Part shown: positions 22,404-45,709 of the stretch, one piece after another | How the letters are laid out: each line of letters begins with the position of its first letter | Numbering within the stretch: the first letter of the stretch is position 1 | Assembly (NCBI GenBank): GCA_018005585.1 | Contig: JAGMZX010000005.1 | Span: 1 to 56,331 of the forward strand | DNA: 56,331 nucleotides | Direction of reading: 5' to 3' | Source of the DNA: Candidatus Hydrogenedentota bacterium | GTDB taxonomy: Bacteria; Hydrogenedentota; Hydrogenedentia; Hydrogenedentales; JAGMZX01 | Notes under the pieces: generated by a model | What the model was told of the DNA's origin: nothing | Database searches by the model: none | Seen by the model: only the letters and a program-made list of their open reading frames with translations | Position numbers and translations under genes: made by a program

Positions 22404-23522
22404 TCAATGATGCGAAAAGCAGCGCTCCATGCTGAACACCATAGCCGCGCCCGCCTCGTTGCACGCCTCGATCGCCTCGTAATCGTTCACGCTGCCGCCC
22501 GGCTGCACAATCGCGCTCACGCCCTCGCGCGTCGCCGCGTCCACCGCGTCGCGGAACGGGAAGAAGCCGTCCGACGCCATCACCGCGCCATCGAGCGATT
22601 CCCCGCCCTTGTATTTCGTTTTCGCCTTGTGGATCGCCTGCTGCACCGCGCCGACGCGGTCCTGTTCGCCCGTGCCGACGGCGAGCGTCTGCCCGTTGCG
22701 CACAATAACGACCCCGTTCGAGCGCACGTGGATGTTGATGTGCCACGCGAAGAGCAGGTCGTCCAATTCGCGCTCGGTGGCCGCGCGCGCAATGTCGATC
22801 CGCCCCTTCTTCGCATGCTCATTGTACGCGGGCACGAAATCCGCCGCCGTCCTGATGCGTGACAGGTAGGGCTTTGCCAACACGACGCTGCCGTCGTCGA
22901 ACACCTTCATTTCGAGCACGTCCGTGCCGTCTTCGAGGTACTTCGGCAGCTTCGAGAAATCCGGCAGCCGCACGACGCGGATATCCTTGTTGCGCTTGAA
23001 GCGGTCGAAATCGTTGAAAGCAGCCAAGGCCTCGGCGCTGAACGCCGGCGCGGCCACGCCCTCGATGATCGTCTGCATGATCGCTTCGGCTGTCGCCAGG
23101 TCGACCTCGACATTGAACACAACCACGCCGCCGAACGCCGCCTGCGCGTCCGCGTCGCGCGCGCGCAGATAGACATCCGCCAGCGCCTGATCGCCCACGC
23201 GAATCGCAACGCCCGAGGGGTTGCAGTGCTTCATCACGGCGCACGCGGCGCGCGGCATGTATTTCAGGATGCCCACCGCGTGGTGGATGTCTTCGAGGTT
23301 TGTCTGCGACAGGCCGCTCTTGCCGGTCTTCAGCATCTCATAGCGGCCCAGTACAAGGCCCTGTTTCTCCACGGGCCGGTAGAACGCGGCGGGCTGATGC
23401 GGGTTCGTGCCGTAGCGCAGGTCCTCGGCCTTCTCGTAGGCGCGCCCGAGCACCTCGATGCGCTCCGGGAAATCGCCCGTCGTCTTCGTTCGGTACATCT
23501 TCTTGAGATCGGGTTCGGCCAT
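22404..23522 (-). CDS. Stand-alone AICAR formyltransferase (PurH transformylase half)
   Basis: A 372-residue protein covering only the AICAR transformylase part of PurH. It carries out formyl transfer from 10-formyl-THF to AICAR in IMP synthesis. Family landmarks: LRYGTNPHQPAAFYR, LGRYEMLKTGKSGLSQTNLED, the catalytic Lys-His in AVMKHCNPSGVAI, AFGGVVVFNVEVD, FVPAYNEHAKKGR and ASDGFFPFRDAVDAA. The N-terminal MGS-like IMP cyclohydrolase domain of the usual 520-residue fusion is absent, and no cyclohydrolase gene is beside it. The start at 23522 follows GGGGAGAACTACCC. The cell must have a separate cyclohydrolase elsewhere. Confidence 0.9.
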   Translation of the reverse strand: MAEPDLKKMYRTKTTGDFPERIEVLGRAYEKAEDLRYGTNPHQPAAFYRPVEKQGLVLGRYEMLKTGKSGLSQTNLEDIHHAVGILKYMPRAACAVMKHCNPSGVAIRVGDQALADVYLRARDADAQAAFGGVVVFNVEVDLATAEAIMQTIIEGVAAPAFSAEALAAFNDFDRFKRNKDIRVVRLPDFSKLPKYLEDGTDVLEMKVFDDGSVVLAKPYLSRIRTAADFVPAYNEHAKKGRIDIARAATERELDDLLFAWHINIHVRSNGVVIVRNGQTLAVGTGEQDRVGAVQQAIHKAKTKYKGGESLDGAVMASDGFFPFRDAVDAATREGVSAIVQPGGSVNDYEAIEACNEAGAAMVFSMERCFSHH

Positions 23523-23722
23523 GGGTAGTTCTCCCCAGCGTTGATATTGCGGCAGCGGGACGCACCCGCTCATCCGTGCCCAGGCGAACGGCAGACCGCG
23601 GCGCCGCCGCTTCCCCGTGGTCGATTCCACGCTGCGTCGCCAGTCGCGACTGCCCCGTCTTCACGCCGCTGATTCTGCCACAGAAGGAACCGCGAAGGCG
23701 AATGCCTCAACGGCGAAATACA

Positions 23723-41400: not shown

Positions 41401-41994
41401 TTACGTGCGCGCCGGCGCATCCGGCTTCCGCATGCTCAGGAAATTCCGGATCATCTGCTTGCCGTTTTCGGTCAGAATGCTTTCCGGGTGAAACTGAACG
41501 CCCCAGACGGGATGCTCCCTGTGCGCCACGGCCATGATCTCGCCTTGGTCCTCGGTCTCGGCGGTAATTTCGAGGCAGGCCGGACAGGTCTCGCGCTTGA
41601 TGATGAGCGAATGGTAGCGCGTGGCAATGAACGGCGAGGGCACGCCCTTGAAGAACACGTTGCCGTTATGCCGTATGGAGCTGACCTTGCCGTGCATGAT
41701 GCGGCCCGCGCGCACGACGTCGCCGCCGTACGCCGCGCCGATGCTCTGGTGGCCGAGGCACACGCCGAGCACCGGGAATTCCGCGCCCAATTCCCTGATG
41801 ACCGGGACGGACACCCCGGCCTCGTTCGGCGTGCAGGGGCCGGGCGAAATGACAATGTGGTCCGGATTCAGCGCGCGCACGCCCGCCACGTCGATCTTGT
41901 CGTTGCGAAATACGCGGATGTCTTTTTCTATTTCGCCGAAGTACTGAACGAGGTTGTAGGTAAACGAATCGTAGTTGTCGATGAGCACGATCAT
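41401..41994 (-). CDS. trpG: Anthranilate synthase glutamine amidotransferase subunit
   Basis: A 197-residue class I amidotransferase. It starts [20 protein letters not shown]; the nucleophilic Cys is in [10 protein letters not shown], and the His-Glu pair in [10 protein letters not shown]; the substrate region [20 protein letters not shown] is typical. It supplies ammonia from glutamine to the TrpE subunit and may also serve para-aminobenzoate synthesis, as the TrpG/PabA split cannot be read from sequence. ATG 41994 overlaps the trpE stop in ATGA, so the two subunits are translated together. Confidence 0.95.
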
Positions 41995-43475
41995 GATTCG
42001 AGCCCTTTCTCTGCGAATTCGACGGCCCGAAACAGCGCTTTCGCCTTGTTGACCGTCTCCTCGTATTCGCGGTCCGGGTCGCTGTCGTAGACGATGCCCG
42101 CGCCGGCCTGCAAATGCGCCACGCCGTCCTTGACGACCATCGTCCGGATGAGGATGCACGTATCCATGTCCCCGCCGAAACTGATATAGCCCGCGCCGCC
42201 CGAATAGGGGCCGCGGCGCACGTTCTCGAGTTCGTCAATAATCTCCATGGCCCGGATTTTCGGCGCGCCGCTCACGGTGCCCATCGGGAACGTGGCTTCG
42301 AGCGCGTCGAAGGCCGTGCAGCCGCCTTTCATGCGGCCCGCCACCTCGCTGACGATGTGCATCACGTGCGAATACCGCTCGACGGCCATGAACCGGCTCG
42401 CGACCGGCGCCACGGTGCCCGGTTCGCTTACGCGGCCCACGTCGTTCCGCCCGAGGTCGACCAGCATGATGTGCTCGGCGCGCTCCTTTTCGTCAGCCAT
42501 GAGGTCTTTTTCGAGCACGGCGTCTTCAACGGGCGTGGCGCCGCGCGGGCGCGTCCCCGCGATGGGCCGCACCATGCAGGTCTCGCCTTTCACCTGGGTC
42601 ATGACCTCGGGGCTGGACCCAACCAGAGCCGCCTCGGGAAATTGCAGGAGCAGCATGTACGGCGACGGGTTGATGCACCGCAGCGCGCGATAGAGATTGG
42701 CGGGGCTCGCGCTCACCGGGCGCGCGAACCGCTGCGAAAGCACGACCTGGAAAATATCGCCCGCGCAGATGTATTCCTTTGCCGCACGCACCGCGTCGCA
42801 GAAAGCCTCGCGCGAAAAGTTGGACGCAATCGCCGCGCCTTCACCGGAATGCACGCGCTCGGTGGTCACGGTGAGCGGTCCGCGCAGCCGCGCCTCGAGT
42901 TCGTGAATCTTGCGCACGCCCTCGTTGTAGGCCGCCTCCGCGTCGCCGTCCACATGTACGTTCGACACGATCTGAATCTTGTTCTTCACGTGGTTGAACA
43001 CGAGGAGCGTGTCCGTAATCATGAAATAAAGGTCCGGCAGGCCCAGCGCATCCGGGTTCTTGTCCGGCAGCTTCTCGAAAAACCGCACCTGGTCGTAGCT
43101 CATGTAGCCCACCGCCCCGCCGTGAAACGGCGGCAGGCCGTCCATGGCCACCGGACTGTAACCCGACATGAGCTTCTCAAGTTCGCGCAGCGGATTATCC
43201 GATGCGAACCGCTCCTCGACGCCGCGCCGGATAATCGACACGTCGCGGCCGCGGCTCCGGAAAAGGACCGTCGGGTTCGCACCCAGAAACGAATACTGGC
43301 CGATCTGGTCCGCCTTCTCGACGCTTTCAAGCAGGAAGGAATACTGCTGTCCCCGCGACGCTTTGAGATACGCCGTGACCGGCGTCTCGAGGTCGCCGAG
43401 AATCTCCTGATAAATGGGCACAAGCGCGCCCGGGCGCGCCAATTGTTTGAACGTCTCCAGGTCCGGACGAATCAT
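41991..43475 (-). CDS. trpE: Anthranilate synthase component I
   Basis: A 494-residue enzyme that makes anthranilate from chorismate, first step of Trp biosynthesis. The N-terminal feedback site LLES is intact in [20 protein letters not shown], so inhibition by Trp is expected. The chorismate-binding core is clear: [69 protein letters not shown] and [16 protein letters not shown]. It begins 6 bases after hisI with GGGGAG upstream. Joined to hisI and trpG in one operon, a mix of His and Trp steps that share the PRPP and chorismate economy. Confidence 0.96.
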
Positions 43476-43481
43476 GACGTA

Positions 43482-43847
43482 TTACTCCCCGGCGACGCCG
43501 TCCCCGTCGAGGGTGAGCGTCCCGTCGTTTTCCACGCGCCGGTAGAAACAGCTCGTTTCGTTCGTGTGGCACGTCGGACCGATGGGGTCGCACTTCACGA
43601 GGAGCGCGTCGCCGTCGCAATCGATCCGGATTTCCTTTACCTGCAACACGTGGCCGGAAGTCTCGCCCTTGAGCCACAATTTCTGCCGCGAACGCGACCA
43701 GAAACAGGCCTTGCGCTCGCGCAGCGTGATGCCGAGCGATTCCCGGTTCATATAGCCGACCATGAGCACTTGGCCGGATTCAAAATGCTGGATCACGGCG
43801 CAGATAAGGCCTTTGTCATCGAATTTAAGCAGATCATCCAATTTCAC
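43482..43847 (-). CDS. hisI: Phosphoribosyl-AMP cyclohydrolase
   Basis: A 121-residue enzyme for the third step of His synthesis. Motifs: QVLMVGYMNRESLGITLRER, ACFWSRSRQKLWLKGETSGH, and the metal-binding IDCDGDALLVKCDP with PTCHTNETSCFYR, which holds the conserved Cys and Asp ligands. It is the monofunctional form, without the HisE pyrophosphohydrolase domain. I chose GTG 43847 with AAGGAG 8 bases upstream; the GTG at 43856 sits directly on that ribosome site. First gene of hisI-trpE-trpG, preceded by an elaborate leader (43857-44086). Confidence 0.95.
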   Translation of the reverse strand: MKLDDLLKFDDKGLICAVIQHFESGQVLMVGYMNRESLGITLRERKACFWSRSRQKLWLKGETSGHVLQVKEIRIDCDGDALLVKCDPIGPTCHTNETSCFYRRVENDGTLTLDGDGVAGE

Positions 43848-43930
43848 GCAATACACTCCTTTTTCCGATTGCGCCCCACAACACAGACTTCACGGGGGGA
43901 TGGTACCTGGATTCAAAGAAAGGAATCATT

Positions 43931-43947
43931 CGGCGCGGTGCGCGCCG
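43931..43947 (-). promoter_or_regulatory. Hairpin 3:4 of the hisI-trpEG leader, possible attenuator
   Basis: On the minus strand CGGCGCG (43947-43941) pairs with CGCGCCG (43937-43931) across a 3-base loop. A pyrimidine-rich run, TTCCTTTCTTT, follows a few bases later, so this is at best a weak terminator. The 5' arm can instead pair with the 3' arm GCGCCGC of the upstream hairpin (44026-44020). Confidence 0.5.
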
Positions 43948-43951
43948 TCGA

Positions 43952-44005
43952 TCAGGCAGAATGGGGGTGACGCCATCGACAAGCCTGCAAACTGGCTATC
44001 GGCAT
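43952..44005 (-). CDS. Putative 17-residue leader peptide before hisI-trpE-trpG
   Basis: The frame reads MPIASLQACRWRHPHSA and ends at TGA. A full GGAGG ribosome site (44017-44013) lies exactly 7 bases before its ATG, better than many real genes in this window. It contains one Trp and two His codons close together near its end, and the stop codon is 4 bases before a GC-rich hairpin. Both Trp and His pathways are represented in the operon that follows (hisI, trpE, trpG), so a stalling leader peptide for attenuation is a fair reading. A chance short frame is the alternative. Confidence 0.45.
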   Translation of the reverse strand: MPIASLQACRWRHPHSA

Positions 44006-44019
44006 CACCGTTCCTCCAT

Positions 44020-44041
44020 GCGGCGCAACCATCCGCGCCGC
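44020..44041 (-). promoter_or_regulatory. Hairpin 1:2 of the hisI-trpEG leader
   Basis: GCGGCGC (44041-44035) pairs perfectly with GCGCCGC (44026-44020) across an 8-base loop on the minus strand, directly upstream of the ribosome site of the leader peptide. Its 3' arm can also pair with the 5' arm of the downstream hairpin, so the two structures are mutually exclusive in principle. Confidence 0.5.
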
Positions 44042-44056
44042 ATATCACTTGCCCCT

Positions 44057-44086
44057 AGTATACGGGGTCCGAACCCCGATAGTCCA
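44057..44086 (-). promoter_or_regulatory. Promoter of hisI-trpE-trpG with a palindrome in its spacer
   Basis: Minus-strand -35 TGGACT (44086-44081), an 18-base spacer and -10 TATACT (44062-44057). The spacer holds the perfect palindrome CGGGGTTCGGACCCCG (44078-44063), abutting the -10. That placement suits a repressor or a MerR-type activator. Alternatively the palindrome is a simple hairpin terminating the upstream methyltransferase gene, which stops at 44137. Confidence 0.5.
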
Positions 44087-44136: not shown

Positions 44137-44877
44137 TCAGCGCCCCTTTACGTGCAACAGGCGCGTCCATTTCTTGAGCACGCGCACCACCAGATAAACA
44201 ATCGCGCTGGCGGCCAGAATCACGCCCCAGATGGGGTCCACTTGAAACCGGCCTGAGACGAGAAAGTCGCCCGAGATTTCGAGCGCGCCGAAAACAACAA
44301 TGATGGCCAGGAATGTGGACTGCTCCCGGCGCAGCAGCGTCCGGAAGGAAAAGGGCAAGTCGGGGGCCCGCCACAGGCGGAAAGAAGGAATCACGGCGGG
44401 CGTGCGGCGCGCCCACTCCTCAAACTGAACGCCAAATCGCGCGCGCAGATGCGCCTCTTCGGCCAGCATGATCCGCTCGTAATAGAGTGAGAAGGCCAAG
44501 GTAATCAACAGGCTGAACCACCAGACCCGGGGGAACAGGGCCACGCCCAGCCACATGAGGAAATTGCCGAGGTAGAGCGGATGGCGCACGACGGAGTACA
44601 GGCCTGTGGTATTCAGAGCCGCGGCGACCTGGTCTTTCGTGTTGCGGCCCGACGTGCCAGCGGGCTTATGCCCCACCACATGCGCGCGGATGCCAAGGCC
44701 GAGAAACGATACGGTAAGGCACGTGAAATCCCAGAACTCGTCCAGCATGTGGCTGCCGAAAGGATAGTGGAAACCCTGCATGGCCGGCAGAAACAGGGCA
44801 ACGACCGCCAACGGCAGATAACTCCGATACCGGAAAAGCCATCCGCCAAGATACTCCATTTCATCGCGAAGGGTCAT
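44137..44877 (-). CDS. Isoprenylcysteine carboxyl methyltransferase/phospholipid methyltransferase-like membrane protein
   Basis: A 246-residue membrane protein with about six hydrophobic segments. The catalytic signature of the ICMT/PEMT superfamily is present: NTTGLYSVVRHPLYLGNFLM, then SLYYERIMLAEEAHLRARFG and FEEWARRTPAVIP, with RHPLYLGN and the paired acidic residues forming the SAM site. It probably methylates a lipid or isoprenoid substrate in the membrane. It lies 36 bases downstream of hisF on the same strand and upstream of the hisI promoter region. Substrate not determinable. Confidence 0.85.
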   Translation of the reverse strand: MTLRDEMEYLGGWLFRYRSYLPLAVVALFLPAMQGFHYPFGSHMLDEFWDFTCLTVSFLGLGIRAHVVGHKPAGTSGRNTKDQVAAALNTTGLYSVVRHPLYLGNFLMWLGVALFPRVWWFSLLITLAFSLYYERIMLAEEAHLRARFGVQFEEWARRTPAVIPSFRLWRAPDLPFSFRTLLRREQSTFLAIIVVFGALEISGDFLVSGRFQVDPIWGVILAASAIVYLVVRVLKKWTRLLHVKGR

Positions 44878-44913: not shown

Positions 44914-45681
44914 TTACAGCCGCACGGGCACCCCGTGTATTGCGAGATATTCCTTCGCTTGGCGCACGCTGTATTCACCGTAGTGGAAGATCGAGGCGGC
45001 GAGCGCGGCATCGGCCTTGCCCTCGACGAGCGCCTCGCGCAGGTGTTCCAGATTGCCCGCGCCGCCGCTGGCGATGACGGGAATGCTGACCGCCTCGGCC
45101 ACCGCGCGCGTCAGGGGAATGTCGTAGCCAGCCTTGGTGCCGTCCGCGTCCATGCAGGTCAGCAGGATTTCGCCTGCGCCGCGTTTTTCGGCCTCGACTG
45201 CCCACGCGACCGGTTCGAGAGGCGTGGGCCGGCCGCCGTCGCGGCCGCCATGGCTTTTCACGATGTAGGCGCCGTTTTCCGTCCTTTTCGCGTCGATGGC
45301 GACCACAATACACTGTGCCCCGAAACGGGACGCGGCCTGGGTGATGAAATCGGGGTTCTCTATGGCGGGCGTGTTAACCGAGACTTTGTCCGCGCCCGCA
45401 TTCAGCAACCGGCGGATGTCTTCGACAGTGCGGATGCCGCCGCCGACGCACAACGGCATGAATGCCTGCTCGGCGGTGCGTCGCACCACATCGAGCATGG
45501 TTTCCCGGTTGTCGGTGGAGGCGCGGATATCGAGAAACACCAGTTCGTCGGCCTGTTCCTCGTCGTAGCGCCGGGCGATTTCGACCGGGTCGCCCGCGTC
45601 GCGCAGCCCGAGAAAGTTCACGCCCTTCACGACGCGGCCATCGGCCACGTCCAGGCACGGGATGATGCGTTTGGTCAGCAT
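44914..45681 (-). CDS. hisF: Imidazole glycerol phosphate synthase cyclase subunit
   Basis: A 255-residue (beta-alpha)8 barrel that works with HisH to close the imidazole ring and release AICAR. Catalytic Asp residues are in [18 protein letters not shown] (Asp 11) and [19 protein letters not shown] (Asp near 130); phosphate-binding loops [20 protein letters not shown] and [18 protein letters not shown] are intact. The hisH partner is not in the window. The AICAR released connects with the stand-alone AICAR formyltransferase encoded at 22404. It is the last or middle gene of a minus-strand run starting at the Xaa-Pro peptidase. Confidence 0.96.
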
Positions 45682-45709
45682 GGGTCTTTCTGTCAGGCGC
45701 GGCCGGGCC

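Follow-up and report, generated by a model that had tools for sequence, protein, structure and literature searches.

A leader peptide frame conserved in the his-trp cluster of Candidatus Hydrogenedentota, a putative attenuator for tryptophan and perhaps histidine

The trp leaders (TrpL) of Escherichia coli and Rhizobium are short translated frames with one or more Trp codons near codon 10-11, located before trpE, and multivalent leaders include thrL (Thr and Ile) and ilvL (Ile, Val and Leu). Actinobacteria also have trp leaders, and the mycobacterial cys leaders – with which Canestrari et al. (2020) also deal – have no terminator hairpin and contain polyY motifs that have been suggested as Rho sites (PMC1262725). 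TnaC of the E. coli tryptophanase operon senses free Trp (PMC8429421), with a Rho step described in work cited in PMC1262725. We found no description of leader-peptide regulation in Hydrogenedentota in the literature searched. The locus reported here lies in a window of 56,331 bp from a Candidatus Hydrogenedentota bacterium (contig JAGMZX010000005.1, the whole stretch of DNA analyzed), and it resembles the trp leaders of E. coli, Rhizobium and Actinobacteria in having a short frame with Trp near codon 10-11 ahead of trpE.

A sequence-only reading of this DNA had proposed an attenuator-like leader ahead of hisI-trpE-trpG, and the identities of all three genes are borne out by NCBIfam matches above cut-off (Table 1). 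The start of hisI is most likely the GTG at 43847, eight bases past AAGGAG (43861-43856). The leader frame has 17 codons, with one Trp and two His codons; the GGAGG lies exactly seven bases before it and its stop is four bases ahead of hairpin 2 on the minus strand, both as first described. TGGACT-18-TATACT is the sole promoter-like site in 400 bp, where 0.2 are expected, and this part of the reading stands; the 'perfect 16-base palindrome' said to fill its spacer is a repeat with 6 bp arms and a 4-base loop (CGGGGT-TCGG-ACCCCG, 44063-44078). L002, a relative from the same genus, retains the -10 hexamer and the spacing of 18 bases, and only about 4 bp of the spacer repeat. The usual upstream neighbor in relatives is hisF, and in many of them its end just precedes the leader. 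Between hisF and the leader in the window there is a methyltransferase gene (44137-44877, minus strand) resembling the Leptospira lipid A phosphate methyltransferase LmtA, with a match of 225 bits that is below the cut-off of 325. Elsewhere in the window a ZMP/ZTP riboswitch (RF01750, 51.6 bits, 23571-23657, minus strand) overlaps the beginning of a purH transformylase-like frame (22404-23630; matches below the NCBIfam cut-offs), which is an ordinary pairing.

Table 1. Positions in the window of the leader, its candidate signals and the flanking genes.
Feature	Position	Strand	Remarks
hisF	44914-45684	minus	TIGR00735 above cut-off (NCBIfam)
Promoter-like TGGACT-18-TATACT	TGGACT 44081-44086, TATACT 44057-44062	minus	Putative; sequence match
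Hairpin 1, 9 bp arms ATGCGGCGC/GCGCCGCAT	44018-44043	minus	Present here; not a conserved part
Ribosome-binding site GGAGG of leader	44013-44017	minus	Seven bases 5' of ATG 44005
Start-Trp hairpin, 5' arm GGTGATGCCG (leader start region)	44000-44009	minus	Pairs with 43966-43975
Leader peptide frame MPIASLQACRWRHPHSA, stop TGA	43952-44005	minus	Conserved frame in 57 genomes
Core CGA-TGG (Arg10-Trp11)	43973-43978	minus	CGATGG in 51/57; Arg before Trp in 56/57
Start-Trp hairpin, 3' arm TGGCGTCACC (Trp, Arg, His codons)	43966-43975	minus	Pairs with 44000-44009
Hairpin 2 (CGGCGCG-CAC-CGCGCCG)	43931-43947	minus	Present here
CU-rich, G-poor run, candidate Rho loading region	43909-43925	minus	Composition; weaker than in most relatives
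hisI (phosphoribosyl-AMP cyclohydrolase)	43482-43847	minus	NF000768 above cut-off (NCBIfam)
trpE (anthranilate synthase component I)	41991-43475	minus	TIGR00564 above cut-off (NCBIfam)
trpG (glutamine amidotransferase component)	41401-41994	minus	TIGR00566 above cut-off; 4-base overlap with trpE stop

HisI was sought in 60 genomes and the regions upstream were then inspected, nearly all of which contain a short frame with CGA-TGG. A search with a model built on sequence alone recovers the leader from most families of the order, generally as one strong site in each genome, and TrpE searches then added family f10; the same model gives noise-level matches only in 32 genomes of other groups outside the phylum. 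The set finally analyzed comprises 57 leaders, one from each of 57 genomes of this order within Candidatus Hydrogenedentota. Arg-Trp is common to 56 of them and CGATGG to 51, the Trp is codon 11 in 36 of the 57, and the base following TGG is a pyrimidine without exception. A purine-rich site resembling GGAGG precedes most of the 57 leaders. The residues ahead of Arg-Trp vary freely and the lengths range from 11 to 36 codons. There is one Trp codon in the leader of the window and in 38 of the first 50 leaders, and tandem Trp codons are confined to some f10 leaders and one f6 leader. A conserved small frame upstream of hisI-trpE in related genomes, which the earlier reading had called for, was thus found far beyond chance, and with start, ribosome site and Trp codon all kept across relatives it behaves as a true leader peptide. 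The 17-codon frame is, on this comparative evidence, almost certainly real, old and conserved.

At least four genomes whose region can be read have no leader (G005, G026, G039 and G058, with G060 not counted). No convincing second copy is present in the window's own genome, and no similar leader is seen before leuA in the 16 upstream regions inspected. An ATG inside CGATGGCG was considered as the start of a second frame and rejected, its lengths and ends being inconsistent. Two kinds of start are unusual. The leaders L152 and L153 (family f10, genus g19) have no ribosome site and their ATG is a few bases after a -10-like stretch, such that they may be translated from a leaderless mRNA; and in L191, L193 and L154 the first in-frame leader ATG overlaps the hisF stop codon (ATGCTGA), which suggests translational coupling to hisF.

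The two GC-rich hairpins of the sequence-only reading are present in the window, and they are not conserved: hairpin 1 is absent from L002, the nearest relative, and hairpin 2 does not extend beyond the genus, with L002 losing one inner pair without compensation. The pyrimidine run that had been placed after hairpin 2 is there too, separated from it by about five bases, and the arrangement is therefore not that of a standard terminator. With a z of -1.4, the fold of the 218-nt leader is barely more stable than those of shuffles, so that these hairpins are not beyond chance. Across 50 leaders the best hairpin plus T-run averages -4.45 kcal/mol against a shuffled mean of -4.45 kcal/mol, no consensus fold emerges over all codon-11 leaders or over f10, and Rfam returns no leader, T-box or amino-acid riboswitch match for the leader but a single irrelevant sub-threshold one. 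The three mutually exclusive structures that were envisaged as in a classical attenuator are therefore not upheld, there being no terminator excess and no conserved downstream pairing. One could still suppose a classical attenuator whose pause, antiterminator and terminator hairpins evolve too fast to be aligned; in this species hairpin 1 is able to pair with hairpin 2, strong hairpins plus T-runs are present in a few leaders (L066 among them), and Trp at codon 11 with Arg at codon 12 resembles E. coli TrpL. The equality of terminator energies with shuffles, the loss of hairpin 1 in so close a relative, and the lack of a consensus fold or Rfam match nonetheless make this very improbable.

A different hairpin, not noticed in the sequence-only reading, pairs the leader start with the Trp region, and this start-Trp helix is supported in families f1, f2, f4 and f8. 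Taking all leaders together, the duplex energies have a z of -8.95, and 15 of the 20 f4 members fall below 0.05 on their own; the energies give no start-Trp pairing in f3, f6, f7, f9 and f10. In 20 sequences 78.5% of the cells pair, compared with 26.9-61.2% when the arms are slid, a control that leans favorably because the sequences were picked after a first fold and the register was set on them; changes on both sides occur in 11 cells versus 4.6 in shuffles, with 1 in 500 shuffles as high. The hairpin may keep the CGA-TGG core in f1, f2, f4 and f8, and would be an alternative reason for its conservation, but the families without the hairpin also keep the core.

The genes downstream bear on what the leader might sense. 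In most families these are hisI-trpE, but f7 (L138) and f10 have hisI elsewhere, and there the leader sits directly before trpE, mostly still just after hisF; losing hisI as a neighbor thus does not separate the leader from trpE, which it tracks. Some f10 leaders have three or four Trp codons, with readings WWWRW, WWRRW or WWRR. Because of this tracking and the multiple Trp codons in some lineages, Trp sensing is the natural reading, and the leader very probably responds to Trp supply.

The earlier reading had proposed joint sensing of Trp and His, and the His part draws support from in-frame enrichment. His accounts for 11.7% of 898 in-frame codons in the first 50 leaders, compared with 2.7% and 2.6% for the two remaining frames and about 3% for the spacer downstream, and is 3.2 times the composition expectation; at least one His codon is present in 47 of these 50 leaders, at varying positions, and most families have them. 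Past the Trp codon, His makes up 23% where hisI comes next (40 leaders) and 5.8% where trpE does (17 leaders; Fisher p 0.007), an association that weakens to p 0.07 once close relatives are thinned. The alternative is a leader for Trp only, in which the start-Trp hairpin, a basic peptide motif or common descent would account for the His codons as a by-product. The leader does follow trpE and not hisI, in f1, f4 and f8 the CAC that follows CGT pairs with a GTG ahead of the start, and the hisI association hangs on two lineages without hisI. But in a stricter count, which leaves out the two codons next to Trp including one able to pair with the GTG, the hisI-type leaders still have 30 His codons in 130, and each of the other frames has 1 in 130, with no enrichment in trpE-type leaders, and the varying positions and wide occurrence of the His codons also speak against a by-product; we consider the Trp-only explanation possible but somewhat unlikely. 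Dual Trp/His sensing gains support because post-Trp His codons concentrate where hisI follows. As related sequences are not independent, the evidence for it is good but not conclusive, and whether His is a second signal we regard as finely balanced.

The region following the leader stop is pyrimidine-rich. In the first 30 nt past the stop the pyrimidine content is 0.71-0.75 and the C/G ratio 1.6-2.5 (50 leaders), compared with about 0.48 and about 0.9 in genes, and the best 40-nt pyrimidine content is 0.75 versus 0.62 in 57 control intergenic regions (p 5e-14, ignoring relatedness). In the window's own leader the CU enrichment is modest. This composition fits a Rho loading site but is no proof of it, and the genome has a rho gene (TIGR00767 above cut-off). 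Pairing of the leader ribosome site with the CU tract is no better than in shuffles, and the ribosome site of the downstream gene pairs with the spacer less than shuffles do. With no terminator excess and no sequestered gene ribosome site, Rho would be the simplest way to stop transcription, a route for which the mycobacterial cys leaders offer a precedent (PMC1262725), and we hold Rho-dependent termination at the leader with middling confidence.

From these patterns we infer Trp and His sensing, Rho action and a step that couples them. We propose a leader-peptide attenuator, conserved through Hydrogenedentota within the his-trp cluster, that would gate trpE-trpG, together with hisI where present. 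The progress of the ribosome over the critical Trp codon would report charged tRNA-Trp, and in hisI-type leaders the His codons between Trp and stop would probably add a readout of charged tRNA-His. When the amino acids are plentiful the ribosome would finish and leave, the CU-rich RNA after the stop would be bare, and Rho would load and end transcription ahead of the biosynthetic genes; in shortage, the behavior of the ribosome on the leader would prevent Rho termination. In f1, f2, f4 and f8 the start-Trp hairpin could hold back re-initiation, or could make RNA polymerase pause so that it stays in step with the first ribosome. The Trp codon is most often six codons before the leader stop, and a ribosome stalled there leaves the tract bare, so that a plain stall would regulate with the wrong sign, and the scheme requires one more step; a ribosome stalled at His codons near the stop would sit closer to the tract. 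The genomes without a leader, at least four in number, and the p of 0.07 for the His-hisI association after thinning count against this scheme. Overall, an attenuator for Trp, probably also His and perhaps Rho-dependent, is a reading for and against which we find the case about equal.

One variant of the same leader would supply the coupling step by frameshifting. When tRNA-Trp is uncharged, the ribosome halted at the Trp codon behind the rarely used CGA (11 among the 255 Arg codons of nine genes in the window) would slip +1 at CGA-UGG-Y into GGY, continue beyond the normal stop across the CU tract and so shield the tract from Rho, a shielding that would give the right regulatory sign. The one tRNA-Arg found in this incomplete assembly has the anticodon TCT, which says nothing either way about a tRNA for CGA. 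The pyrimidine after TGG in every leader agrees with this, as does a shortage of +1 stops in the first 42 nt past the leader stop (5 versus 15.7 expected, z -3.05; 3 versus 12.4 in a thinned set), with no such shortage before Trp. The first +1 stop falls 20 nt or less from the gene start in 31 of 57 leaders, compared with 15 and 18 for the other frames, and a title cited in PMC5009743 provides a precedent in CGA-AAG, the shift site of Bacillus subtilis cdd, though in the -1 direction. Against it, a deviation of equal size occurs in an unrelated count, the stops in frame -1 before Trp (10 versus 20.6 expected from codon shuffles of the 57 leaders), and with many tests made over several frames and stretches a |z| near 3 is not compelling. 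Moreover, six of the 57 leaders have no CGA before TGG, a tRNA-Arg moved to GAU would not re-pair, and a 2016 review (PMC5009743) knew of no natural use of hungry-codon shifting. We consider such a starvation-triggered switch improbable. If true, it would be a natural case of this kind, in which a shortage of amino acids is reported by frameshifting and not by RNA folding. We also considered internal initiation in the +1 frame and rejected it, there being few candidates with a ribosome site.

Returning to the attenuator that we propose, the element would be a case of amino-acid attenuation that spans a phylum and does without the hairpins of the textbook mechanism, and in it a single leader seems to read two unrelated amino acids on behalf of a cluster that joins his and trp genes. 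It also offers a small, testable sequence in which a ribosome on a leader would control a biosynthetic operon with no terminator. It differs from the known trp leaders in that there is usually a single Trp codon behind CGA and no conserved terminator or antiterminator, and in having a CU-rich tract after the stop and added His codons within a his-trp cluster. With the mycobacterial cys leaders it shares an amino-acid leader peptide without a terminator hairpin and a possible Rho site, but those leaders have runs of Cys codons in place of a single Trp, and their polyY motifs are not conserved, whereas the composition of the tract is conserved here. As in TnaC, a Trp is central to the leader peptide, and a Rho-dependent step, here a proposal, comes after it; other conserved TnaC residues are not seen, and while TnaC turns a catabolic operon on, Trp should here turn a biosynthetic operon off. 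Finally, like thrL and ilvL, one leader is enriched in codons for more than one amino acid, matching its operon, but there is no classical terminator, and the two amino acids, Trp and His, belong to separate pathways.
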